Positions 18,507-32,015 of a DNA stretch of 32,015 nucleotides are shown in pieces (the first letter of the stretch is position 1; each line of letters begins with the position of its first letter). The stretch comes from Filomicrobium sp. (GTDB lineage Bacteria; Pseudomonadota; Alphaproteobacteria; Rhizobiales; Hyphomicrobiaceae). Where the stretch lies: NCBI GenBank assembly GCA_029287535.1, contig JARFQY010000294.1:1-32015 (forward strand), written 5' to 3'. The notes beneath the pieces are model-generated. The model had not been told where the DNA came from. It saw nothing but the letters and a program-made list of their open reading frames with translations, and did not search any database. Made by a program: the position numbers and the translations under genes.

Positions 18507-18801
18507 TTTTTTGTTGGTCCTTCTTCAATTCAGCGATCAATTGTCATCTTGGCCTGCGACAGTCTCAACTCCGCGCAGGAAGGTTGCAAGTGGTCTGGTG
18601 CGCGAACTGGAGTGCTATCAGTTTGTTTTCCGGTAAGGTTTCGATAAGCCACCCGTTGCAACCTCCTGAGATCACGTGCTTGCCGCGTGGTTAAGCCGGA
18701 ATGAGGCGTACAAAAAGAAAAATTGAGCGAAGAGGCTTCGCTCGGCAACCGCGTCCTGGCCGACCCGCCAGGTGGCGAGCGTCGAAGCTGGGAGGTTGTT
18801 G

Positions 18802-20088
18802 ATGAGTCTACGAGCCGGAGCACGCTCGGTCGTTTTTCTCTGCACGGAGATGCGCTCTCCTATAGTGTTGCTGCTATCAGTCATTGCTGTGACTTGGCTG
18901 CCGGGTTGGCAGCACGATAACCTGGAGTTGTTTCTTGCCATGGCCTCATTGACGCCAGGCGCACCTTTTCCGCGATCCTTGACGGATACTGCAGAGCAGA
19001 ACGCGAGTGAGGGGCAATCAGCGATTGGATCAAAAGGGTCTGACGAGAGTTGGCGAGCGATCATCGATGCTCTGCCCGACGCTGCTTTGACGCTCGATGC
19101 GGATGGCGTGATTTCTCATCAAAACGAACTTCTCAAAGGTCTTTTCCCTGAAATGACGGTTGGTCAGGCCATGGGGCAGCTGCTGAGAGATCCTGATCTG
19201 AAGACCGCTGTGGAGATGGCCCCCCGTTCAACCAAGCCGATGGTTGTACATCTTAATGAACGCGTTCCGGTGCCACGCAGTATCGAAGCCACCGTCACGC
19301 GCCTTGAGTTGGGTTCCGATACGGCCAGGCTCTTGGTGACATTCCGTGATTTAACCGAGCGCGAGAAGGTCGAAAAAATGCGTGCCGACTTCGTCGCCAA
19401 CGCAAGTCATGAATTGCGCACGCCGCTCGCCTCCCTCAAAGGCTACATTGAAACGCTGCAGGGTTCGGCCCGCGAAGACGAGGCAGCCCGCGATCGATTT
19501 TTGGCGATCATGTGGACCCAGGCCCTGCGCATGTCGCGCCTCGTCGACGACCTTTTATCGCTGACCCGTGTCGAGATGCGTGCCCACCTTGTGCCGCGTG
19601 GCACGGCGGACCTCAATGAAGTGGCCGCCTATGTCGTGCAATCCTTGGAGCCATTGGCGAATTCGCAGAACGCGCGGATTAGCTTGAAAGTTCTGGATGC
19701 AGACGCACTTATTCGCGCCGATCGTGAGGAAATCGTGCAGGCGCTCCAGAACCTCGTTCACAATGCTCTGAAGTATGGCCGTGACAATGGCTGCGTCGAA
19801 GTCACCGTTTCTCGGCAGGCAAACGATGACGGAACCCAAGATACGTTTAACGTTTCGGTTGCTGACGATGGACCCGGTATTGCCGCCCACCATTTGCCGC
19901 GTCTTGTCGAGCGCTTTTACCGCGTTAACCCTGCCTCGAGCCGGGAAAAAGGCGGCACCGGATTGGGGCTCGCGATCGTCAAGCACATCATGCTGCGACA
20001 CCGCGGAGATCTAAAGGTCACCTCCAAAGTTGGCCAAGGATCGACGTTCACTTTGGCGTTTGAAGAGCTCGCCCCAAACGCGACCTAG
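18802..20088 (+). CDS. phoR: Phosphate regulon sensor histidine kinase PhoR
   Basis: The start at 18802 is chosen because GGGAGG lies six bases upstream; a GTG at 18772 would add ten residues without a ribosome site. The product is 428 residues. One or two short hydrophobic segments lie near residues 20-45, then a PAS domain (WRAIIDALPDAALTLDADGVISHQN, about 80-180), then the kinase: H-box FVANASHELRTPLASLKGYIETL, N-box QNLVHNALKYGRDNG, G1 VADDGPGI, F-box and G2 GGTGLGLAIVKHI. It lacks a large periplasmic domain, as usual for PhoR, which reads phosphate status through PstSCAB and PhoU. It is the first gene of the phosphate cluster; its partner PhoB is encoded at the other end. Confidence 0.95.
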   Translation: MSLRAGARSVVFLCTEMRSPIVLLLSVIAVTWLPGWQHDNLELFLAMASLTPGAPFPRSLTDTAEQNASEGQSAIGSKGSDESWRAIIDALPDAALTLDADGVISHQNELLKGLFPEMTVGQAMGQLLRDPDLKTAVEMAPRSTKPMVVHLNERVPVPRSIEATVTRLELGSDTARLLVTFRDLTEREKVEKMRADFVANASHELRTPLASLKGYIETLQGSAREDEAARDRFLAIMWTQALRMSRLVDDLLSLTRVEMRAHLVPRGTADLNEVAAYVVQSLEPLANSQNARISLKVLDADALIRADREEIVQALQNLVHNALKYGRDNGCVEVTVSRQANDDGTQDTFNVSVADDGPGIAAHHLPRLVERFYRVNPASSREKGGTGLGLAIVKHIMLRHRGDLKVTSKVGQGSTFTLAFEELAPNAT

Positions 20089-20116
20089 AAAAAGCAATAA
20101 TATTCAAACGCTTAAG

Positions 20117-20145
20117 TTGTCACAATTTTGTATGCAAACTGTCAA
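20117..20145 (+). promoter_or_regulatory. Pho box of three direct-repeat units upstream of pstS
   Basis: TTGTCAC (20117-20123), TTGTATG (20128-20134) and CTGTCAA (20139-20145) are spaced by exactly four bases (AATT and CAAA), giving an 11-bp period. The first and third match the Pho-box unit CTGTCAT in 5 and 6 of 7 positions, the middle one in 4. PhoB binds such head-to-tail repeats next to the -10 region. The position, 117 bases before the pstS start, fits PhoB activation of pstSCAB-phoU-phoB from inside the cluster, separately from phoR. Confidence 0.88.
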
Positions 20146-20261
20146 AAACACTTAGAACTAATAGTCTAGGTGTGGATGGCCGGCGCGGGGAGCTCCGGCC
20201 AGATGTCGGTATACCGCTGACATCTTGTTTGCACTCCTAGAGCAATCCAGGGAGAAAAAGC

Positions 20262-21323
20262 GTGAACCACAAGTTCATCGCCATCGCTGTAGCAACTGCT
20301 GCTGCGGGCTCATTTGTACTTACTAATGCGGCGTCGGCCCGTGAAATTAAGATCGTCGGTTCATCGACGGTGTTCCCTTACACGCAGGCGGTTGCCGAGG
20401 AATTCGCTCGCGCCGGCGGTAAGGCTCCAACGGTCGAATCGACCGGCACCGGCGGCGGCATGAAGATCTTCTGCGCTGGTATCGGCGAGTCGCACCCAGA
20501 CATCACTGGTGCTTCGCGCGCCATGAAGTCTTCGGAAAAGGCCGACTGTGAGAAGAACGGCGTCAAGGACGTCACCGAAGTTCTGCTTGGCTATGATGGA
20601 CTGTCTGTCGCCAACTCGCGTAAGGGCAAGAAGTTCTCGGTCACGAAGCCTCAGCTTTATCAGGCCTTGGCTGCGAAGGTTCCTGTTGACGGCAAGCTCG
20701 TCGACAACCCTTACAAGAAGTGGTCGGACATCGATAAGGCGCTGCCGAACCAGCCGATCACGGCTTACGGCCCGCCGCCAACCTCCGGTACGCGCGACGC
20801 TTTCGTCGAACTCGTTTTCCACTACGTCTGCAAGAAGGGTAAGCTTCCTTTCTGGGCCGACGCGAAGAAAGGCGCTGGCGACAAGAAAGCCTTCAAGAAG
20901 ATGTACAAGGCCGACTGCACCGCCATGCGGACCGACGGCCCGTTCATCGAAGCCGGCGAAAATGACAACCTGATCGTTCAGCGTCTCGATGCTGACCCGA
21001 ACGCGGTTGGTATCTTCGGCTACTCGTTCCTGTTCGAGAACCAGGACAAGCTGCAGGCTCTCCAGATTGGTGGCGTCGAGCCGTCAATGGAAACCATTGC
21101 GTCCGGCGAATACGGCATTTCCCGTCCGCTGTTCATCTACATCAAAAACGCTCACCGCAAAGTCATCGACGGCATGACTGCCTTCATCGAGGAGTACGTG
21201 TCCGACAAGGCTATGGGTGACGGTGGCTATCTGTCCGAGCGCGGCCTCGTTGTACTTCCTGCCGACAAGCTGAAGGAAGTTCAAGAAGGCGCTCGCAAAG
21301 CAAAGAAAATGGCAGCGAAGTAA
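20262..21323 (+). CDS. pstS: Phosphate ABC transporter substrate-binding protein PstS
   Basis: The GTG start at 20262 is backed by AGGGAG seven bases upstream. The 353-residue precursor has a signal peptide (cleavage after NAASA, about residue 26). The mature start REIKIVGSSTVFPYTQAVAEEF is typical of the family. Phosphate-binding loops are visible: GSSTVFP near 32-38, ESTGTGGGMKIFC near 60-72, DITGASRAMK near 80-89 and PPTSGTRDAF near 171-180. It is the periplasmic high-affinity phosphate receptor for PstCAB. Codon use is more biased to preferred codons (AAG, ATC, GGC) than in neighbours, fitting high expression. Two hairpins follow the gene before pstC, consistent with much higher pstS than pstC levels. 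Preceded by a clear Pho box. Confidence 0.97.
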   Translation: MNHKFIAIAVATAAAGSFVLTNAASAREIKIVGSSTVFPYTQAVAEEFARAGGKAPTVESTGTGGGMKIFCAGIGESHPDITGASRAMKSSEKADCEKNGVKDVTEVLLGYDGLSVANSRKGKKFSVTKPQLYQALAAKVPVDGKLVDNPYKKWSDIDKALPNQPITAYGPPPTSGTRDAFVELVFHYVCKKGKLPFWADAKKGAGDKKAFKKMYKADCTAMRTDGPFIEAGENDNLIVQRLDADPNAVGIFGYSFLFENQDKLQALQIGGVEPSMETIASGEYGISRPLFIYIKNAHRKVIDGMTAFIEEYVSDKAMGDGGYLSERGLVVLPADKLKEVQEGARKAKKMAAK

Positions 21324-21329
21324 ACAATT

Positions 21330-21401
21330 GCCTCGACGAATGAAATTCGTTCGAAGAGGCTAGAAAAATACGCGGCGGCGGCCTCGTTCTTAGAGGCCGC
21401 C
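21330..21401 (+). terminator. Two hairpins between pstS and pstC
   Basis: Hairpin one (21330-21360) pairs GCCTC with GAGGC and, further in, ACGAAT with ATTCGT around a GAA loop, with a small internal bulge. Hairpin two (21377-21401) has a perfect 9-bp GC-rich stem GGCGGCCTC/GAGGCCGCC with a seven-base loop. Neither is followed by a strong T run. They probably stabilise or partly terminate the pstS message, allowing excess binding protein over membrane subunits; this is inference from position. Confidence 0.6.
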
Positions 21402-21489
21402 ACCCAATTTGAAATAAAAGTACCGACGTCGACACCAGTATGCGCGCAAGGTGTTTGCGTTTCTTATCCGCCGATTCATAGGCTGACCC

Positions 21490-22872
21490 ATGCTCTCCTA
21501 CCTGCTGCTGGCCTTGCTGGCTGTCACCATCGCGGCGTATTTCGCGGGCTACTCAAAAGCACGCGCCTTCGCCACCGGGGCAAGTGACGGTTCACAGCAC
21601 TCGCTGTCTGGCTACCATGGCGCATACGTTGCTGCCTGGGCCGGAATTCCTTCTTTTCTCTTGGTTCTTCTGTGGTTGCTCTTCCAAGGTCCGGTCGTCG
21701 ACTCGCTCTTGGTGTCGAGCCTGCCGCCCGATCGGGTTGAGGGCCTGGATGTTGGTCAGCTGAACTTGCTGGTAAGCGAGATCAAATCGGTCGCAAAAGG
21801 CAACATATTCAGTGAGCCCGACGCAGTCGTCCTTGCAGCGGCCGAGCGGTACAACGCTTGGAACGCGATCGCCAACTGGGCCATGGTCGCTTGTGCGCTC
21901 GCTTTGGCTGTCGGCGCCTTGTTCATTGCGCGCTCAAAGCTGGCGCCGCGGTTCCGGGCACGCAACCAGGTTGAACGCATTACCTCGGCCCTCATGATCG
22001 TTTGCTCGCTCATCGCGATCTTCACGACCATCGGCATTGTCGTCTCACTTCTGTATGAGACGCTGCGGTTCTTCTCCATGGTATCGCCCCTTCAGTTCTT
22101 CTTCGGCTTGAACTGGGAACCGCAGATCGCCATGCGAGAGGATCAGGTGACATCGGGCGGCGCATTTGGTGCGATCCCGGTTTACGTCGGCACCCTGCTG
22201 ATCGCCTTTATCGCCATGCTGGTGGCCACCCCGATTGGGCTCTTTTCAGCCGTGTATCTGACCGAGTACGCTTCCGACGGCGTGCGGGCGGTTGTGAAGC
22301 CGCTACTGGAGATCCTCGCTGGCATCCCGACCGTCGTTTATGGCTTCTTCGCCGTTTTGACGGTTGCGCCCGCGATGCGCCAGTTCGGCGAATTGCTTGG
22401 CTTCTCAATCGCTCCGAACAGCGCGCTCGCCGCCGGTGCGGTGATGGGCATCATGTTGATCCCATTCATCTCTTCACTCTCCGATGACGCTCTTGCCGCG
22501 GTGCCTCAGTCACTTCGGGATGGATCTTATGGACTCGGCGCCACCAAGGGCGAAACGATCACGAAGGTCCTCCTTCCTGCGGCGTTGCCGGGCATCATGG
22601 GCGGTATCCTGCTCGCCGTCAGCCGCGCCATCGGCGAAACCATGATCGTTGTTATGGCCGCCGGCATCATCGCGGCATTGACGCTCAACCCGTTCGAGCC
22701 TGTCACCACAGTGACCGTGCAGATCGTCACCTTGTTGATCGGCGACACTGAATTCGACAATCCCAAGACGCTCGCGGCATTCGCACTTGGTCTGGTGCTG
22801 TTCTTGGTCACGCTGTGTCTCAACGTGATCGCTTTGAGCATCGTTCGAAAGTACCGGGAACAATATGACTGA
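21490..22872 (+). CDS. pstC: Phosphate ABC transporter permease PstC
   Basis: The 460-residue product is an integral membrane permease. About 200 N-terminal residues contain two or three extra helices and a periplasmic loop (residues about 65-120), a form usual in alphaproteobacteria and longer than the roughly 320-residue E. coli PstC. The conserved ABC permease core follows, from GAIPVYVGTLLIAFIAMLVATPIGLFSAVYLTEY. The EAA loop contacting the ATPase is LRDGSYGLGATKGETITKVLLPAALPGIMGGI. The last 8 bases overlap the start of pstA, so the two are translationally coupled. With PstA it forms the transmembrane channel for phosphate. The ribosome site is weak. Confidence 0.95.
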   Translation: MLSYLLLALLAVTIAAYFAGYSKARAFATGASDGSQHSLSGYHGAYVAAWAGIPSFLLVLLWLLFQGPVVDSLLVSSLPPDRVEGLDVGQLNLLVSEIKSVAKGNIFSEPDAVVLAAAERYNAWNAIANWAMVACALALAVGALFIARSKLAPRFRARNQVERITSALMIVCSLIAIFTTIGIVVSLLYETLRFFSMVSPLQFFFGLNWEPQIAMREDQVTSGGAFGAIPVYVGTLLIAFIAMLVATPIGLFSAVYLTEYASDGVRAVVKPLLEILAGIPTVVYGFFAVLTVAPAMRQFGELLGFSIAPNSALAAGAVMGIMLIPFISSLSDDALAAVPQSLRDGSYGLGATKGETITKVLLPAALPGIMGGILLAVSRAIGETMIVVMAAGIIAALTLNPFEPVTTVTVQIVTLLIGDTEFDNPKTLAAFALGLVLFLVTLCLNVIALSIVRKYREQYD

Positions 22873-24517
22873 TATCTCGCAAGCCCAGCCGTCGATCACG
22901 CATGATTGGTCGTCTAGCACAGCCCGTCGTCGTGTCCGACGACGCTATGGCGCCGATCGCCGTCTGCAGCTGTACGGTCTCGCCGCGATCGGCACAGCGA
23001 TGGCGTTGCTTGGCATCCTTTTCACCTCCCTCATTTACGCGGGCTACGCCGCGTTCACGACAACGAAGGTGGAGCTAGGGGTCTTCCTCGATCCGGAAAA
23101 GATCGACAAGGACAACATCCGTGCCGCGAACTTCCGGAAGATCGTCCGGGACGCATTCTTCTCGTACTTCCCAGAAGTTCAGAATCGAACTGAAAAGCGG
23201 AATTTGTCGAAGATTCTGAGTTCCGGCGCCGACTACATCGTTCGCGATTACGTGGTCCGCAACCCGGATAAGATCGGGGAGCTCGTCAAGATTTCGGTTC
23301 CGGTCTCAGATCCCTTCGACCAGCTCTACAAGGGGATCATCCCGCGCGAAATCGACGCTTTGTCGTATGACCGGATTGCCCTTTATCGGCAGCTGGAGAG
23401 TAGAGGTGTGCTCAGCGTCGTCGATGGTGTGGGCGTTGCGAAGACGACATTGTTCGTCGATCCGGCACAGGTTCCAGAGGAAGGTGGCGTCGAGGCCGCG
23501 GATTTCCAACGCATGATCGACGAGGGCTTCCGTAGCTTCTTCCTGGCGGAACCAAGCCGGTCCTTCTACGAGATTCTCTCGCGAAACGCGGCGGAGACAT
23601 TAAGGAACAAGGTCGTTGCCGATCCGAGCCTGGTTGGGAAGACCATCGAGATCAATCTGCCGCTGTCGTCGAACTATGATAATCTGCTCCAGAAGGGCGA
23701 AGCTAAGATTCGTAACCCCAGGTTCAGGTCCGACAAGGAATTCGCCTGGTTCGACTCCCTTATCCAGCGCGGGTTGATCAGCACACCGTTTACGTGGGAA
23801 CTGTTCTTCAACGCGGACAGCCGCTTCCCGGAATTGGCGGGTCTGGCTGGCGCGCTATCGGGCTCGTTCTTGGCGTTGCTCGTGTGCTTCTTGTTGAGTT
23901 TCCCGATCGGCATCGCGACAGCGACATATCTCGAGGAATTCGCCCCGAAGAACCGCATTACGGACCTTATCGAGGTTAATATCAATAACCTCGCGGCGGT
24001 CCCCTCGGTGGTGTTCGGTCTGCTCGGTCTGGCACTCTTCCTGAACACGTTCGGTATGCCGCGGTCGGCGCCGCTTGTCGGTGGCATGGTGCTCGCCTTG
24101 ATGACGCTGCCGACAATCATTGTTGCCACACGGGCGGCACTAAAGTCGGTACCGCCCTCGATCCGCGAAGCCGCACTGGGCGTTGGGGCCTCCAAGCACC
24201 AGGTGATGTTGCACCATGTGCTCCCGCTGGCGATGCCGGGCATTCTGACCGGTACGATCATCGGTCTTGCACAGGCATTGGGAGAAACGGCACCATTGTT
24301 GCTAATTGGTATGAACGCGTTCATACCGAGCGTGGATAATGTTGGTCTCACTCAGCCGGCGATGGCTCTGCCCACGCAGATCTTCTCGTGGGCTGACAGC
24401 CCTGAACGTGGCTTCGTGAGCCGGACTTCCGCGGCCATTCTTGTACTGCTTGGCTTCCTCGTCTTGATGAATCTTCTCGCGGTGTACCTGCGCCGTCGGT
24501 TCGAGAAAAAATGGTAA
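22865..24517 (+). CDS. pstA: Phosphate ABC transporter permease PstA with large duplicated periplasmic insert
   Basis: The 550-residue product is nearly twice the E. coli length. After a basic N-terminus and one helix (residues about 38-62), a 250-residue periplasmic region of the DUF3333 type precedes the five-helix permease core (from about 325). The core includes [18 protein letters not shown] and the EAA loop [28 protein letters not shown]. The insert consists of two related units, about residues 73-184 and 197-307: [79 protein letters not shown] and [16 protein letters not shown]. The insert could contact PstS or the PstC loop; that is inference. Overlaps pstC by 8 bases and pstB by up to 7. 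Confidence 0.95.
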
Positions 24518-25341
24518 AGGGATCGCTCACCATGGATCAACAAGTAGTGTCACCAGAGACGACCACGACGAGATCAGTGGTAGAAGACCCCAAGATCACA
24601 TCGGGGGACGTTAGCGTTTTTTACGGCGCCAAGCAGGCCCTTTTCGATGTCAATCTCGACATCCCCCGTTATGCGGTAACATCGCTCATCGGTCCTTCGG
24701 GCTGTGGCAAGTCAACTTACCTGCGCTGCATCAACCGCATGAACGACACCATCCCCATCGCTCGCGTCACGGGTGAGATCAAGATCGATGATCAGGACAT
24801 TTACGATCCCGACCTTGACGTCGTCGAGCTTCGCGCACGTGTTGGCATGGTCTTCCAGAAACCGAACCCGTTTCCAAAGTCCATCTTTGAAAACGTCGCC
24901 TATGGTCCGCGCATCCACGGATTGGCCAAGGGCAAGACCGACTTGGAAGAACTCGTGACCACCAGCCTCGAGCGCGCCGGTCTATGGGACGAGGTCAAGG
25001 ATCGTATCAATGAGCCCGGCACCGGCCTGTCAGGTGGTCAGCAGCAGCGTTTGTGTATTGCACGGGCCATCGCCACCAAGCCTGACATTATCTTGATGGA
25101 CGAACCCTGCTCCGCCCTCGATCCGATCGCGACAGCGAAGGTCGAAGAACTGATGATGGAGCTGCGCGAAAAGTATACCATTGTGATCGTCACACACTCC
25201 ATGGCTCAGGCCCAGCGCGTCTCGCAGAAGACCGCCTTCTTCCATATCGGCTACATGGTGGAGTACGGTGATACGAAGCAGATCTTCGAGGACCCGCAGG
25301 ACAAACGTACGCAGGACTATATCTTCGGCCGCTTCGGCTAA
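24511..25341 (+). CDS. pstB: Phosphate ABC transporter ATPase PstB
   Basis: The product is 276 residues from the ATG at 24511, which overlaps the end of pstA by seven bases. A second ATG at 24532 (AAAGGG about ten bases upstream) would remove seven residues and is equally likely. All ABC ATPase motifs are present: Walker [11 protein letters not shown]-loop [11 protein letters not shown], signature LSGGQQQRL, Walker [13 protein letters not shown] and the switch His in [28 protein letters not shown] is specific for PstB. It powers phosphate uptake through PstCA on the cytoplasmic face and is also part of the signalling complex with PhoU and PhoR. Confidence 0.97.
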
Positions 25342-25379
25342 TGGTCCTCGGACTCCCGCGAGGGGAAAACAAGAAACGA

Positions 25380-26102
25380 ATGCAAAACCGGACCTACAGC
25401 GAGGAGCTCGCGCTTCTCGACAATAAGATCGCCCAGATGGGCGGCATGTCTGAACATGTCCTGGGGCTGGCTTTTGATGCGTTGGAGCAGCGTGACCCCC
25501 TGCTGGCGGAAAGGGTCGTAGAGCTTGACTGGCGCATCGATGCCCTCGAACGCGACATCGAAGCGCAAGTCGTTGCCATGATTTCCCGGCGCCAGCCAAA
25601 GGAAGAGGCGCTTCGCCGCGTCATTGGCGCAATGCGCATTGCCGCCGATTTGGAACGCATTGGCGATCTGGGCAAGAACATCGCCAAGCGGGCCTTGGCG
25701 ATCGCCCACGAGCCACACCCGAAGCCACTCATGACAGGCCTGCGCCACATCGTGGAACTGGCGCTGCGCCAGTTGAAGGATGTTCTCGACGCTTACGCCG
25801 CGCGCGACGCCACCCGCGCCATATCCGTGTGGCACGCTGACCGTCAACTCGACGACCTCTACAACTCCCTGTTTCGCGAGTTGCTGACCTACATGATGGA
25901 AGACCCGCGCAACATCGGGCTTTCCACGCATCTTCTTTTCGGTGCCAAGAATATCGAGCGAGTCGGCGACCACACCACCAATATCGCTGAAACGATTCAT
26001 TATCTCGTGACAGGCGTTAATTTGACGGATGACCGGCCCAAAGGCGACCAGACGAGCACGACGCTGATCAAGAATGGTGTAGATCGTGAAGAGGATAGCT
26101 GA
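25380..26102 (+). CDS. phoU: Phosphate signalling protein PhoU
   Basis: Starting at ATG 25380 the product is 240 residues. An earlier in-frame ATG at 25341, overlapping the pstB stop by one base (TAATG), would add 13 residues not typical of the family. The protein is all-helical with two PhoU repeats: YSEELALLDNKIAQMGGMSEHVLGL and ARDATRAISVWHADRQLDDLYNSL. Metal-binding motifs ERIGDLGKNIAKRA and ERVGDHTTNIAE carry the conserved E/D-x3-D pattern. PhoU inhibits PhoR when the Pst transporter is phosphate-replete and limits uptake. It sits between pstB and phoB, 14 bases before the latter, in one transcription unit. Confidence 0.96.
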   Translation: MQNRTYSEELALLDNKIAQMGGMSEHVLGLAFDALEQRDPLLAERVVELDWRIDALERDIEAQVVAMISRRQPKEEALRRVIGAMRIAADLERIGDLGKNIAKRALAIAHEPHPKPLMTGLRHIVELALRQLKDVLDAYAARDATRAISVWHADRQLDDLYNSLFRELLTYMMEDPRNIGLSTHLLFGAKNIERVGDHTTNIAETIHYLVTGVNLTDDRPKGDQTSTTLIKNGVDREEDS

Positions 26103-26116
26103 GCTAGGCGGAACCG

Positions 26117-26827
26117 ATGGGACAACTTCAGATGACGGCGAAACTCCTCATTGTCGAGGATGAGCAGGCGCTAAGCGAGTTGTTGCGTTACAACTTCGAG
26201 GCGGAGGGTTTCCACGTTACCCATTGCGAGTCGGGTGAAGAGGCGGAGATTATCGTCGCCGAAGAGACGCCTGACATCGTCGTGCTCGACTGGATGCTGC
26301 CCTCGGTCTCCGGCATTGAGTTGTGCCGGCGCATGCGTTCCAAACCGGAAACGCGCAATATCCCGATCATCATGTTGACGGCGCGCGGCGAGGAGACCGA
26401 TCGAATCCGCGGCTTGGATACCGGTGCCGACGACTATGTCGTCAAGCCGTTCTCCGTTCCCGAGCTGATGGCCCGTGTGAAGGCAATCCTACGCCGTTCC
26501 GCCCCCGACCGCATGGCGGAAGTCTTGAGCGTGTCCGATATCGAACTTGATCGGGCTGCTCATAAGGTGACCCGCGGGCCGCGCGAAGTTCACCTTGGCC
26601 CGACGGAGTTCCGTCTCTTGGAATATCTCATGGAGAGCCCCGGCAGGGTTCTGTCGCGCTCACAGCTCCTCGATGGCGTCTGGGGACGCGACGCCTTCGT
26701 TGACGAGCGGACCGTGGACGTCCACATCGGCCGCCTGCGCAAGGCCCTGATCCGTGGAAAAGAACGCGACCCGATTCGCACCGTGCGCGGTGCCGGGTAC
26801 GTCTTTGGCGAACGTTCGGGCAAGTAA
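26117..26827 (+). CDS. phoB: Phosphate response regulator PhoB
   Basis: The 236-residue product is an OmpR/PhoB-type regulator. The receiver has LLIVEDEQ, phospho-acceptor Asp in IVVLDWMLPSVSG, MLTARGEE and DYVVKPFS. The winged-helix output domain (about 135-232) includes HLGPTEFRLLEYLMESPGRVLSRSQLLDGVWG and DERTVDVHIGRLRKAL...IRTVRGAGYVF. WMLPSVSG and RDxFVDERTVDVHI are PhoB-specific. Phosphorylated by PhoR at low phosphate, it should bind the Pho box at 20117-20145 and activate its own operon. Start supported by AGGCGGA upstream; an internal ATG (MTAKLL, residue 6) is possible. It is the last gene of the Pho cluster. Confidence 0.97.
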   Translation: MGQLQMTAKLLIVEDEQALSELLRYNFEAEGFHVTHCESGEEAEIIVAEETPDIVVLDWMLPSVSGIELCRRMRSKPETRNIPIIMLTARGEETDRIRGLDTGADDYVVKPFSVPELMARVKAILRRSAPDRMAEVLSVSDIELDRAAHKVTRGPREVHLGPTEFRLLEYLMESPGRVLSRSQLLDGVWGRDAFVDERTVDVHIGRLRKALIRGKERDPIRTVRGAGYVFGERSGK

Positions 26828-26952: not shown

Positions 26953-29454
26953 ATGATCGCAATAGCAAAAGGCTTGATGCGTCTGGTCGAGATGGTGGTG
27001 TCCATCCCGGTCTGGATTGCACGGTTCTTTACCGAGTGGATCGCGTTCAACCCGCGCCTCGGGGCCCTACGCTATGTCGTTCTCGCGCTCTTTGCGTACC
27101 TGGCGTTTGCGGTTGTGCTCGTCTATGTCGTCGCGCCGATTCGCGGTTACACCGGTCAGCTCTATCTTTCCGACAAGCTCAAATACGATGCCGAACGCTG
27201 GCTGGCGACGGCGATCTACGACAAGCGCGGCAACTTTGTTGGCACCTTCGATCCCCGCCTCGACAGCCAGCAGGACGTCAACTGGACAGGCGAGGCCATC
27301 GACCTTGGCGACTACATCTCCAATCCGGATCATAAGTCGATCCCCGTCCGCCAGGTTCCAGAGCACTATTGGAAGTGTCTGACGTTCCATGAGGACCGCC
27401 ATATTGGTACCATCTACAATCCGTTCGGTATCGATCTGCTGGGCGTTCTGAAGATCCCCTATTCCACGATCCGCCGCTCCGTTGCACTTGGTCGCCCGGC
27501 GCTTGGCGTCGGAGGATCGACACTTCCCATGCAGATCGCCCGGGTGATCTACAAGACGCCACCGCAAACCAGTGAGGGTCCGTTCGCCAAGCTCAAGCGC
27601 AAGGTCGGCGAATGGTGGCTGGCGCCCGTGATCTATTTCGAACTGACCCAGGGTGGTGACCGAACCCGCCTGAAGCAATGGGCGGCCAACCACCTGTGGC
27701 TTGCGCAGCGTACAGGCGGCACGTCTCTCCACGGCGTTGAGCTGGCCAGCCGCATCGTATTTGGCAAGGAGGCCAAGGATCTGACGGTTGCCGAGCAGTT
27801 CGTCCTGGCCTCCGCCGTCAACAAACCCGTCATCCTGCTGCGCGGCAGTGAGAGGCTTAATCAGGTGCGTCTCGATCGCTGGCGCTACATCACCGAAGTG
27901 CGCGCAAGAAAGTGCGCCGAACGCCTCTTAGAGGACGATGAACAACAAAAGGCGGTGGTTTTCGACTTGATTGGACTGGCCGGCGGTCCCCCGGACCCCC
28001 GCGTTCAGCCGGGTCTCGACAAGACGCTTGAAAAGCTCTCGCCGCGCCTTGCAGCCCGGGCCCGCGCCAATCCCGTCGTTCGCGCCAACACGCTGATGGG
28101 CGCCTCTCGCTACGGCCTGCGAGAAGAGATGAAGCAGACCTATGGCTTCGATTGGCGCAACCACGTTCGTGGCGTTTCGACCAGCCTCGACGCGGGCGAG
28201 AACCTGGCCTTTACGCTGCGTATGACGGACGCCCTGAAGGCTCTGGGCGACAAGCTCGCTGATCGCATGGACCCGGCCTTCACGTTGGATCGAACGAACG
28301 CCGGGCCGGGTGTCGACCTACCTCATGTCGCCGTTGTCGCCGCCGACGCTGAAGGTCGCATAGTCCGCTATTTTGAGAATAGGGAAACGGCGAGCTATTT
28401 CGGCTCGCCGGTCGCGCGCAACTCCGAGACGGGTTTTTACGAACGTGCGCGCGAACCCCGCATGATCGCCTCGACCGGCAAGATGATCGCCGCTATCGCC
28501 ATCGCCAACGAAGGCCGGGACAGCGCGTCCACGCTGTATGTAGATACCACTGCGCCGGCGCGAGGGCTGGAAACCTGCCGCAGAAACGGCAATCTCCGCC
28601 GCGGCCGCAAAGCGGTTGTCGCCTTCGCTTGCTCCCTCAACGTTCCAATCGCCAATCGCACCGCGAAGATCGGGCAGCCGCGGATCAAGGCGCTAATCGA
28701 CCAGTTTGGTTTCAACATGCCGCCAACCAACGCAAACGGTGAAGGGACACCACCGTCGACCGCCGCCGTTTTGGGGTTGATTTCCGGTTCGCCGCGCCGC
28801 GTCCATCAAATGTCCTCGGTCGTTCTTAATGCCCTGATCAATCGCTCACGGACCACGGTGCGCCCGCCGACGCTGATTAAGTCCTATGACTACACGCACC
28901 TTCAAGACTCCAAGGGACAGTCTGTCGATGAACTCTCAAGCGCCATCGTTCCCGCCAAGGTGATCCGCGAGAGGGCGAAACCACTTGTAAAGGCCTTGTT
29001 GCAGGCGCCCTTGTGTTACCGGTCCAACAAGACATCGCATGGCACATTGAAAAGTCTGTCGAAGTGGTGTGCCGCACGGCGCTCTGACGTGCGTTTGCAT
29101 TTCGCCAAGACCGGGACGCAGGTGACGCTTGATCCAGACGCCACCGTCGATGTCTGGGCTTCCGGAGGCATCCAGTTCCGCAACGGAGCGGCCTATTCCT
29201 ACGTGGTTGTTGTTGGGACCGGGTCGGCGTCAAAGCCCTGGGCCCGCCGCGTTCACGCCGCCCAGGCGGCCGCTCCCCTACTGGCCGAACTGCTGCCGGA
29301 ACTCGCGGCCCACGCCAAAGCCAATCCACGTTCCGACCTGCTGCCCAGACCAAAGCGAAAGCGGAGGACAACCGGCACGCCACAGCGCGGCAAGCCGTCT
29401 GGCTGGCGCCCCCTGTCCCAACAGGAGCGCGACAGCGTTTTGGGGTTGAACTAA
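26953..29454 (+). CDS. Divergent class A penicillin-binding protein (GT51 glycosyltransferase plus transpeptidase)
   Basis: From ATG 26953 the product is 833 residues; a GTG at 26887 gives 22 more without a credible N-terminus. One membrane helix near residues 38-62 is followed by a GT51 domain: E147 in HEDRHIG, GGSTLPMQIAR (187-197), KRKVGEWWLAPVIYFEL (about 216-232) and DLTVAEQFVLASAVNKP. These match the four peptidoglycan glycosyltransferase motifs but with an unusual spacer IYNPFGID after the first. The transpeptidase triad is intact: STGK (507-510), SLN (561-563), KTG (719-721). The C-terminal 70 residues are Pro/Arg/Lys-rich. Such proteins polymerise and cross-link peptidoglycan in the periplasm. 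It starts 125 bases after phoB and is clearly not an ordinary PBP1a or PBP1c. The next gene may be its partner. Confidence 0.85.
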   Translation: MIAIAKGLMRLVEMVVSIPVWIARFFTEWIAFNPRLGALRYVVLALFAYLAFAVVLVYVVAPIRGYTGQLYLSDKLKYDAERWLATAIYDKRGNFVGTFDPRLDSQQDVNWTGEAIDLGDYISNPDHKSIPVRQVPEHYWKCLTFHEDRHIGTIYNPFGIDLLGVLKIPYSTIRRSVALGRPALGVGGSTLPMQIARVIYKTPPQTSEGPFAKLKRKVGEWWLAPVIYFELTQGGDRTRLKQWAANHLWLAQRTGGTSLHGVELASRIVFGKEAKDLTVAEQFVLASAVNKPVILLRGSERLNQVRLDRWRYITEVRARKCAERLLEDDEQQKAVVFDLIGLAGGPPDPRVQPGLDKTLEKLSPRLAARARANPVVRANTLMGASRYGLREEMKQTYGFDWRNHVRGVSTSLDAGENLAFTLRMTDALKALGDKLADRMDPAFTLDRTNAGPGVDLPHVAVVAADAEGRIVRYFENRETASYFGSPVARNSETGFYERAREPRMIASTGKMIAAIAIANEGRDSASTLYVDTTAPARGLETCRRNGNLRRGRKAVVAFACSLNVPIANRTAKIGQPRIKALIDQFGFNMPPTNANGEGTPPSTAAVLGLISGSPRRVHQMSSVVLNALINRSRTTVRPPTLIKSYDYTHLQDSKGQSVDELSSAIVPAKVIRERAKPLVKALLQAPLCYRSNKTSHGTLKSLSKWCAARRSDVRLHFAKTGTQVTLDPDATVDVWASGGIQFRNGAAYSYVVVVGTGSASKPWARRVHAAQAAAPLLAELLPELAAHAKANPRSDLLPRPKRKRRTTGTPQRGKPSGWRPLSQQERDSVLGLN

Positions 29455-29525
29455 CACGCGCCTGCGTAGTGTTGGCTTGCAGGTGCCCAACACGCGCCTG
29501 CGCAGTGTTGGCTTGCATGTGCTCC
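29453..29525 (+). repeat. Two tandem copies of a 36-37 bp direct repeat
   Basis: Copy one (29453-29488) and copy two (29489-29525) both start AACACGCGCCTGCG and continue AGTGTTGGCTTGCA, differing at only a few positions. A degenerate start of a third copy (AAGACTCGCTTGCG, 11 of 14 matches) follows at 29526. Copy one begins inside the PBP stop codon. GTGTTGG (29469-29475) and CCAACAC (29487-29493) also form a 7-bp stem across the copy boundary, so the array could fold as an RNA hairpin. Confidence 0.85.
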
Positions 29526-29892
29526 AAGACTCGCTTGCGAGGTTTCGACCAGCTCACTTGGCCACCGCGCGTTCATCTCCCGTTAAACCGCCCGGCGCCA
29601 TTGCGTCACAATCGCGCCGTTCTCAAGCCAAAAACACGCTCTACTCAGATAGTTGGAGTAGGGGGCTCGTGGCGGCAGTTTGTATTAAGGCGGGCGCCGG
29701 GCTCTGACTGAAGACGAGGCAACAGCATCATGCACCGGGGCGGACCAAATGGTCTGGCCGAACTGGGGAGCTTCAACACGCCGTGTTGATGTGAGAACGC
29801 GCGGGTCCCTCCGCACTGTACCCATATGACGCTCGCCGGCCGCGTGATGAAAATGGATGGTCGAGCCGATGGCTGTGAATAGTGATAGGTCA
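29526..29892. other. Intergenic region before the unknown membrane protein
   Basis: About 370 bases after the repeat array. Several overlapping frames of 70-80 codons on both strands (for example 29645-29893 minus) have no motif, no ribosome site and biased composition, so I reject them. No clear promoter or terminator was recognised. Confidence 0.4.
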
Positions 29893-32015
29893 ATGCGCGA
29901 ACCGAGTCTGACGCTTGGCGGCACGGGGTCTGCGCATTTGGGCGGCGGCGATTGGATCGAGCCGGAAGAACCTCCTCGCGATTGGAAAAAGCTTTTCCTG
30001 GTTTTGGGTCTGGGTGCGCTGTCGTGGGTCGCGACCTACGTCGGCATGCTCGAACTCATCGAATCGAACATGGGCGAGCTTCCCATTGTCCAGAAGGTCA
30101 TCATCGGCTTCGCGGTGGCGATGCTGATGACCATGATCATCTGGCTGCTCGATCAGATCTTCAGTCCCATCCATTTCACAACGAAAGTCATTTACGTCTT
30201 TGGTTACCTGTTTCTGACCGTCATCTCGGTTGGCTTCGGCTTTGGCTTCTATTGGAAGGTCCTGGAGAGCCGCGGTGAAGCGACAAGATCCGCTGAGGCA
30301 GCAATTTCGCAGGTTCAAACCGCTTTGCATGCGGGTTCGACACGCCTCGAGCAACTCTCCGACACGCTTGAGCAGCTCACCACTGTATCGACGGCCAAGG
30401 CCATCGAGGAGCGTGAAAGAGGAACAAGCTGCCCCAACTCGAGTCCCGGTGACGGTCCACGCCGAAAGCTGCGCGATGCCGACGCGCAGAAGTTCTCGTT
30501 TTCAGGTGACTTCGTCAAAGGGCGTGTCGGCAGCATCCGCAACGAAATGACGGCCCTTGATGCCGAACTGAAGAAGATCTCCGACGCCAGCCAGTCGACA
30601 ATCGACCCCAAGACCGGTACGCGCAACGAGTTCATGCGCGGCCTGAACCGCCGGCTGGATCTGACCGTAGCCGGCTTCAACGCATTCCGCACCGACCCCC
30701 AGCTCGTTCAGATCCGCAGCGATCTGGCCGTCCGCGCCGAAAAGGCGGTATTCCCGAATGGCCGCGGAGGCACCTTTGCATGTCCGGATCCGCAACTGCA
30801 GACGGCGCTGCGCGGCGTTGTTCGCGCCATTGATCAACTGCCGGTTATGCAGCGCCCGCACGTCGCGGCCGTCGAAGGCGCCGAAGCCACCATCGAAGCC
30901 TTTCGCCGCCTCGCGGCGACACTTCAAGGTGCCGTCATCCTCGAGTTGCCCCCGTCGGCTGACGAACTGCGCGCGTTACAGAAGAAAGCCGTTCAGTCGG
31001 TTTCCGGCGGCGCCTCGGGTCAAGCGGCTCCTGTACTGGCGCAGCCCGTCGGCCTGTCCAAGCGCGACTACATTCCGCTGGCCATCGCGGTCTTCGTCGA
31101 CTTCTGCCTGCTGCTTGTGTCCATCGGACGGCCAATCAACCGTCTCAATGGATTGGTGCCGGTCATGCGCGAAGCCGAGCGCGGCCCCATGATCGGAATT
31201 CTATCGCGCTTCAATGAAATCCATCGCGATCCAGAGATTCGCCAGAACTTCGAGGTATTCCGCCACGTGGTTTTCGATATGCACGGCGCCTATTACGTCG
31301 CCGTACCACTGGACGCGCCCTACCGCCCACACGCACGAAATGCGCAAGCTGGCTTCGGTTACGGTTCCCACGATGCTCAGGAGCTGCAGCACGAAGCGCA
31401 CCTGCTCGCCAACCTGTTTTCCGGATTCGAGCAGCAGAAAATTTTCACGCGCGTCTACAACCCATTCCTGTCGACGAAGGCCATACAAAAGAAGCTGTGG
31501 CGCCAGGGCAGCAAATTCGCCGGATGCCAGGCCTTCCGGGTCTATCGATTCCGCGACGGTGCCTGGTCCAACATGATCCTGCAGGCTGTTATGGGAGCGG
31601 CAAAGAGGGCGGAGGATGTGCGCCGCGTGCGCATCAAGGCGGAGGCCGAGGCGAGAGCCGCCGCGCTGGCAGCCGCTCCGGTATCCCGGCATCAGCACGC
31701 AGGAAGCAGCAGTACAGAAAACGACCCGTTGCGCGGTTTCGACACCGGCCTCCGGCATGCCCCGGGTTCCGACAACCCCCGCAATGCTAATGGGGCAAGT
31801 CGCATCCATCCGGGTGCGCTGCGGGCCGCTCGTGATGATCATGACGCCCACCTGAGTGTGGACGCCGGCGGCGTCTATGGTCACGGCGGAACCAACGGCC
31901 GCGCACGCACCGCAAAATCCGGAAACGGCTACAAGGTCAATGCTGGTGATAAGCGCTCCAGGCGCCGTCGCTCGCCGGGCTCTGCGACCGCAGCTGAGGA
32001 GACGCCGGATTCCTA
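29893..32015 (+). CDS. Large four-TM protein of unknown function, runs to the window edge
   Basis: An uninterrupted frame of 707 codons plus two bases reaches the right edge. The final two bases are TA, so the stop may be the very next base or the protein may continue. In-frame ATGs at 29857 and 29869 are alternative starts; none has a good ribosome site. Predicted helices lie at about 34-54, 69-88 and 99-121, then a coiled-coil-like region (EATRSAEAAISQVQTALHAGSTRLEQLSDTLEQL, 129-162). A mostly helical 200-residue domain follows, then a fourth membrane helix (394-412), and then a domain with EIHRDPEIRQNFEVFRHVVFDMHGAYYVAV. The last 100 residues are Ala/Arg and then Gly/His/Asn-rich and probably disordered. 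I recognise no family. Codon use is normal for the window. Confidence 0.85.
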   Translation, partial: MREPSLTLGGTGSAHLGGGDWIEPEEPPRDWKKLFLVLGLGALSWVATYVGMLELIESNMGELPIVQKVIIGFAVAMLMTMIIWLLDQIFSPIHFTTKVIYVFGYLFLTVISVGFGFGFYWKVLESRGEATRSAEAAISQVQTALHAGSTRLEQLSDTLEQLTTVSTAKAIEERERGTSCPNSSPGDGPRRKLRDADAQKFSFSGDFVKGRVGSIRNEMTALDAELKKISDASQSTIDPKTGTRNEFMRGLNRRLDLTVAGFNAFRTDPQLVQIRSDLAVRAEKAVFPNGRGGTFACPDPQLQTALRGVVRAIDQLPVMQRPHVAAVEGAEATIEAFRRLAATLQGAVILELPPSADELRALQKKAVQSVSGGASGQAAPVLAQPVGLSKRDYIPLAIAVFVDFCLLLVSIGRPINRLNGLVPVMREAERGPMIGILSRFNEIHRDPEIRQNFEVFRHVVFDMHGAYYVAVPLDAPYRPHARNAQAGFGYGSHDAQELQHEAHLLANLFSGFEQQKIFTRVYNPFLSTKAIQKKLWRQGSKFAGCQAFRVYRFRDGAWSNMILQAVMGAAKRAEDVRRVRIKAEAEARAAALAAAPVSRHQHAGSSSTENDPLRGFDTGLRHAPGSDNPRNANGASRIHPGALRAARDDHDAHLSVDAGGVYGHGGTNGRARTAKSGNGYKVNAGDKRSRRRRSPGSATAAEETPDS

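Follow-up and report, generated by a model that had tools for sequence, protein, structure and literature searches.

The window, by which we mean the whole stretch of 32,015 nucleotides analyzed, is the entire contig C343 of a Filomicrobium genome (4.5 Mb, 379 contigs) and carries at its end two genes on the forward strand. The first, PBP', runs from an ATG at 26953 to a stop codon at 29454 and encodes a divergent class A-like penicillin-binding protein (PBP) of 833 amino acids. The second, U, starts with an ATG at 29857 and encodes a four-TM protein of an undescribed family, whose reading frame is still open at position 32015. Directly upstream of PBP' lies a complete phoR, pstS, pstC, pstA, pstB, phoU, and phoB cluster (18772 to 26827, forward strand), which we treat as context and not as part of the core. 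PBP' begins about 125 bp after phoB and U about 400 bp after PBP', all in the same orientation. A scan of the PBP'-U region for sigma-70 promoters and terminators gave no sites, a result of low weight in this bacterial group.

Over its last 141 nucleotides, the window matches the end of contig C377 (reverse strand) exactly, and the frame of U continues there to a stop codon. Because this overlap is exactly 141 nucleotides and in frame, U can be given a total length of 975 amino acids. An exact overlap of this size is typical of a graph junction in an assembly, and the join of C343 and C377 is further backed by Filomicrobium records (L083 and L088) that show these genes uninterrupted. The original prediction had placed U correctly on the strand of PBP', but its minimum of 707 residues counted from a later methionine; from the ATG at 29857, 719 residues are encoded up to the end of the window. 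Past U, where a look for further genes of the unit had been suggested, C377 carries in order the gene Y, an alpha-2-macroglobulin gene (1,765 amino acids), and a canonical PBP1C gene (722 amino acids). Relatives of the latter two were identified with Pfam by their macroglobulin domains and by the combination of Transgly, Transpeptidase, and BiPBP_C, respectively.

PBP' has a single N-terminal TM helix (around residues 36 to 62), after which follow the periplasmic GT51 and transpeptidase regions. The GT51 transglycosylase region (residues 124 to 295; 27322 to 27837, forward strand), supported by Pfam Transgly, column counts, and profile alignment, contains E147-D-R followed by N156-P-F-G-I-D, then GGSTLPMQ (187 to 194) and R216-K217-x-x-E220. 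Column counts over 21 sequences place the transpeptidase SxxK at S507-T-G-K510 (28471 to 28482) and an invariant KTGT at residues 719 to 722 (29107 to 29118); between them, directly after the invariant C560, lies the SxN motif S561-L-N563 (28633 to 28641), all on the forward strand. Hence, E147, STGK, SLN, and KTG are present as had been claimed, and in the orthologue alignment E147, E220, S507, K510, S561, K719, T720, and G721 are found in 21 of 21 sequences. The exception is position 563, the third residue of SxN, which is Asn in 13 and Ser in 8 of the 21. Sequence family and catalytic residues are, in that sense, directly observed.

The GT51 motifs, in contrast, are not complete in the canonical sense. 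The two glutamates E147 and E220 are kept, but the His of motif 1 and the Glu of motif 4 are lost. The first motif reads EDR-x-[LI]-G...N-[PLM]-[FY]-G-I-D instead of EDxxFxxHxG: the His is replaced, N156 is invariant, and extra residues are present. This atypical form had been noted before, and since all 21 orthologues share it, it is not a sequencing error. Motif 2 is GGST[LI]xMQ and resembles that of PBP1C, the third motif keeps RKxxE, and in motif 4 the position of the ExYLN Glu varies (Q, R, E, K, or H) next to an invariant W243. PBP' thus lacks the full set of five canonical motifs, EDxxFxxHxG and ExYLN included, but it has the GT51 domain with the catalytic Glu in motifs 1 and 3 expected of class A PBPs, with Pfam Transgly matching 21 of 21 members. 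The importance of the motif-1 Glu is documented for E233 of Escherichia coli PBP1B (PMC4632607).

Transgly is the one domain that Pfam recognizes in PBP' (E = 2.7e-16, 60 bits); its Transpeptidase model (PF00905) matches none of the 21 members. However, profile-profile alignment with hhalign aligns PBP' over its whole length with canonical class A PBPs (probability 99.2, E = 6e-19) and with PBP1C (probability 98.8, E = 4e-16), and it covers the transpeptidase region that is invisible to the Pfam model. A C-terminal transpeptidase with SxxK, SxN, and KTG is therefore present, SxN being the variable element. Six cysteines (142, 321, 542, 560, 688, and 706) are invariant among the 21 orthologues; as all of them lie beyond the single TM helix, they are probably periplasmic and disulfide bonded. 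The genome has three further GT51 genes, among them a PBP1a-type protein (on C194) and PBP1C, which makes PBP' an extra synthase. No other GT51 match in its genome is as weak, and it ranks among the weakest in all PBP'-carrying genomes that were examined. GT51 motif residues beyond the motif-1 Glu also have functional roles, and with the motif-1 His and the motif-4 Glu lost, glycosyltransferase activity is not assured. By its sequence, PBP' is a very divergent class A PBP with the residues for peptidoglycan polymerization and cross-linking, its activity being a prediction.

For U, hydropathy, loop charge, and a structural model place three TM helices near the N-terminus (residues about 46 to 65, 78 to 100, and 107 to 132; 29992 to 30252), with the N-terminus predicted to be cytoplasmic. 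These are followed by a predicted periplasmic helical bundle (about 138 to 344; 30268 to 30888; pLDDT mostly above 85), a fourth TM helix seen in model and hydropathy (about 403 to 425; 31063 to 31131), and a predicted cytoplasmic domain (426 to 600) of low model confidence with the start of a disordered tail (31132 to 32015), all on the forward strand. The AlphaFold2 model of residues 30 to 600, built from 74 sequences, has a mean pLDDT of 78 and a pTM of 0.54; its long-helix bundle is well predicted and its cytoplasmic domain poorly. Of the architecture originally proposed, with three helices, a coiled coil, a fourth helix, and a tail, the four TM helices were borne out, whereas a predicted four-helix bundle describes the supposed coiled coil more accurately. 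Loop charges (a mean of 0.07 K+R in the TM1-TM2 loop and 3.6 after TM4) suggest that both termini are inside and that the modeled bundle is in the periplasm; since the N-terminal and post-TM3 segments are similar in K+R, this topology is one that we infer. C192 and C309 are each invariant in 74 of 74 sequences and could form a disulfide in the periplasm. The tail, which is carried onto C377, is variable except for two short stretches, an RETATF-type motif (RETATF...P), seen in 35 of the 76 tails, and, at the C-terminus of many, an end of the I-x-R-hydrophobic-x-P type (I-A-x-R-L-R-P type). Short motifs in disordered tails are usually docking peptides, and these may have the same role.

U of the nearest named relatives, Filomicrobium MAGs, is about 85 to 91% identical. 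No Pfam family was significant for any of 25 U members, no NCBIfam family reached its cut-off, and no PDB chain matched meaningfully; U is a family undescribed in any library searched, as had been supposed. A fold search returned generic four-helix bundles only (VIA Z of 13 to de novo maquettes, further BAR, ClyA, and TTYH), and as no Foldseek match was below E = 0.07, we do not claim homology to any of them. DUF4407 (PF14362), which has a similar 3TM-coil-TM layout, was considered and rejected: it did not appear in the family list of the 25 members at E values up to 10, and its model gave no match above cut-off in 61 genomes and none in the Filomicrobium genome itself. A viral origin was likewise dismissed, a scan of viral contigs having yielded no relative. 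The same genome encodes a second U-like protein, U2 (613 amino acids; L064 on G000:C290, 6858 to 8699, reverse strand), which is 25% identical to U over the membrane-bundle part and has a similar Cys pair. It lies between clpB and a divergently transcribed 946-amino-acid gene with a TIR-like N-terminus, after which comes a gene for an M23/LysM-type murein peptidase. U2 is present in most U-bearing genomes and lies within a few kilobases of U in family f33.

Y, the next gene after U, encodes 205 to 256 amino acids depending on the start codon and has no significant Pfam family. Its model (63 sequences, pLDDT 82, pTM 0.75) has the predicted fold of the phospholipase D (PLD) superfamily, with a Foldseek match to Salmonella Nuc (1byr) at E = 1.2e-6 and a VIA Z of 11.9 (rmsd 3.1 over 138 residues). 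The catalytic HxK(x4)D, however, is absent: Gln takes the place of the Lys of HxK in 57 of 63 sequences, with H112 kept in all 63 and Lys not among the residues listed at its position, the region after it reads W-x-G-D, and the GSxN region reads GDCM. With Lys replaced by Gln and GSxN altered, Y is most likely a pseudo-enzyme that binds something. It has no apparent membrane segment and is therefore probably cytoplasmic. Y homologues without a linked U were also observed beside unrelated genes (L191 to L197; families f30, f31, and f38), with glmM/folP in L193 and a gene for an Mrp-like ATPase in L191, L192, and L196; the pseudo-PLD family is thus wider than the PBP'-U-Y module.

The pairing of PBP' with U had been proposed from adjacency, with the suggestion to follow it across genomes. 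An evenly drawn set of 199 genomes from the order contained 29 with full-length PBP' and 34 with U; all 29 PBP' genomes carried U, 5 (all of one family, f30) had U only, none had PBP' only, and 165 had neither. Two weak U matches (G032 and G077) were paralogue-like and left out of these counts. Among 385 genomes across the class, U was matched only in the genome of the window itself. Carriers include Hyphomicrobium, Filomicrobium, Methyloligella, and several MAG families. Across 80 named loci, the gene immediately before U is PBP' in 35 of the 64 that allowed the test, and the gene immediately after U is Y in 70 of 70, counts that are not independent trials because the loci are related to each other. 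The proposed adjacency is therefore found, also in families sharing no other neighbors, and the most constant partner of U is Y, a gene beyond the pair first considered.

In at least seven families (f1, f2, f9, f11, f25, f38, and f39), the three genes lie side by side. Particularly informative is G038 of f38, in which the order PBP'-U-Y is kept at 38% (PBP') and 29% (U) identity while the other neighbors are unlike those of Filomicrobium. Such cases bear on the idea that the genes are neighbors by inherited synteny without any functional partnership. The relatedness of the sampled loci and the conservation of flanking MoeA and HerA-like genes in the Hyphomicrobiaceae would fit it, but PBP', U, and Y persist in f11, f33, f38, and Methyloligella, where the other neighbors differ, and the co-occurrence is perfect on the side of PBP'; we consider it very improbable. 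In f33, 6 to 8 kb with leuS and two further conserved genes separate PBP' from U, and in G177 the two are 26 kb apart, with co-occurrence persisting.

The stronger linkage of U to Y than to PBP' raises another option, namely, that U and Y are the actual functional unit, for example, a membrane sensor or signaling pair, with PBP' as one downstream client in some lineages. Indeed, the f30 genomes indicate that U can do something else without PBP', and U2 on C290 adjoins no PBP. However, PBP' never occurs without U in the 199 genomes, the order PBP'-U-Y survives deep divergence, and in f30 itself Y is not next to U (there and in f31, Y also occurs unlinked and without U). We regard this option as quite unlikely.

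The wider neighborhood is less constant. Regulation by phosphate was dropped as a core theme, as pho genes precede PBP' or U in only 6 of 64 loci (Filomicrobium-like and a few Hyphomicrobium), a linkage that is lineage context. In four Hyphomicrobium-type loci (L122, L128, L132, and L137), U comes immediately after phoB and PBP' is not in the vicinity, which makes two arrangements of the pho linkage. In many Hyphomicrobium loci (23), a gene for a HerA/FtsK-like ATPase with a second AAA domain (1,157 amino acids; L116, 3126 to 6596, forward strand) lies just upstream of PBP', and it remains with PBP' where U sits elsewhere (L067, L071, and L082). Alpha-2-macroglobulin is found within 6 kb in 41 of 63 named loci and PBP1C in 35 of 53, with the alpha-2-macroglobulin link absent in the Methyloligella-like group. 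Downstream of PBP1C in the Filomicrobium genome (L063 on G000:C377, 8243 to 10658, reverse strand) lie a gene for a lookalike of polyhydroxybutyrate depolymerase-type secreted proteins (424 amino acids) and a 403-amino-acid gene; relatives of a gene in this position (cluster 8) also come after PBP1C in several Hyphomicrobium loci.

Taken together, we propose that PBP', U, and Y form a peptidoglycan-synthesis module confined to part of the Hyphomicrobiales, in which U links the periplasmic PBP' to the cytoplasmic Y, and that wall insertion or repair is its most likely use, a reading that we place just on the probable side of even. PBP' would act as an additional, disulfide-braced bifunctional synthase that polymerizes and cross-links lipid II. 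U would be its dedicated inner-membrane partner, with the periplasmic helical bundle contacting PBP' and the cytoplasmic domain and the long tail with its short conserved peptide motifs receiving Y, and may in this way place or switch PBP' from the cytoplasmic side. The modeled anatomy of U would suit a connector between a regulator in the cytoplasm and a synthase in the periplasm; co-occurrence and co-linearity are observed, whereas contact between the proteins, the direction of control, and the use are what we infer. Alpha-2-macroglobulin and PBP1C beside the module suggest a use in repair or stress in the Hyphomicrobiaceae, where it may serve to insert or mend wall material locally when the envelope is damaged. 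The two have been proposed to act jointly in defense and wall repair (Budd et al. 2004, as cited in PMC4498604). Counting against our reading are U without PBP' in f30, Y unlinked and without U in f31 and f30, the separation of PBP' and U in f33 and G177, the two lost GT51 residues, SxS in 8 of 21 orthologues, and the missing alpha-2-macroglobulin link of the Methyloligella-like group.

Alternatively, the three proteins might be a synthase complex for growth of the tip or hypha, with U and Y as polar markers. Hyphomicrobium and Filomicrobium, both carriers, are hyphal budding genera. MreB and the elongasome are absent from the order (PMC10259793), and polar growth of Agrobacterium depends on a class A PBP (PMC8546619), which is why we keep a growth role open. 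However, the genome retains a canonical synthase of the PBP1a type (C194), the polar-growth enzyme in Agrobacterium, and the module is also present in several MAG families not known as hyphal and in Methyloligella, which to our knowledge is not a budding or hyphal genus. A role restricted to hyphae is therefore unlikely, and the growth-mode explanation as a whole appears unlikely to us. It is imaginable, although doubtful, that the module is a trans-envelope peptidoglycan synthase complex in which a disulfide-braced class A-type PBP with a rebuilt GT51 active site is controlled via U by the pseudo-PLD Y, and that this complex stands in for part of the MreB/Rod machinery that hyphal Hyphomicrobiales and their relatives lack.

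The module bears on the question of how wall synthesis is placed in the Hyphomicrobiales, which lack MreB and the Rod complex and yet in part form hyphae and buds. It offers three named genes for study, those of a class A PBP family confined to one branch, of the membrane protein that constantly accompanies it, and of a pseudo-enzyme. Through them, the pair of alpha-2-macroglobulin and PBP1C, for which a role has so far only been proposed, is connected to other genes of the envelope. Dedicated partners of class A PBPs are already known; the PBP' subfamily, the U family, and the pseudo-PLD Y are undescribed in any library searched, and searches of the open-access literature gave no paper on a PBP'-U-Y module.

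Among known systems, PBP1C (PbpC) with alpha-2-macroglobulin (YfhM) comes close, as PBP' shares the GGSTLxMQxxR motif 2, has PBP_1c (TIGR02073) as its best NCBIfam model, and is accompanied in its genome by both genes, which come after U and Y. PBP' is nevertheless not a PBP1C: it scores 56.6 bits against a cut-off of 494.2, BiPBP_C (PF06832) is detected in none of the 21 members yet is present in the neighboring true PBP1C family, and the six invariant cysteines and the altered GT51 motif 1 set it apart from the PBP1C encoded separately. With the canonical class A PBPs (PBP1a and PBP1b), among which we count the Rhizobiales PBP1a that is essential for polar growth, PBP' shares GT51 followed by a transpeptidase, SxxK, SxN, and KTG in the same order, and alignability over the whole length, but identity is about 20%, the two GT51 residues are missing, and the transpeptidase escapes Pfam. 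U resembles the class A PBP regulators LpoA/LpoB/LpoP, CpoB, and MacP in concept only, as a dedicated partner. The Lpo proteins are outer-membrane lipoproteins, whereas U passes the inner membrane four times and carries a helical bundle; a relationship in sequence was not found. Finally, Y shares the predicted fold and the invariant His of HxK with the PLD superfamily (Nuc) and differs in the Gln for Lys and the GDCM at GSxN; FAM83 and TrmB are non-catalytic members of that superfamily.
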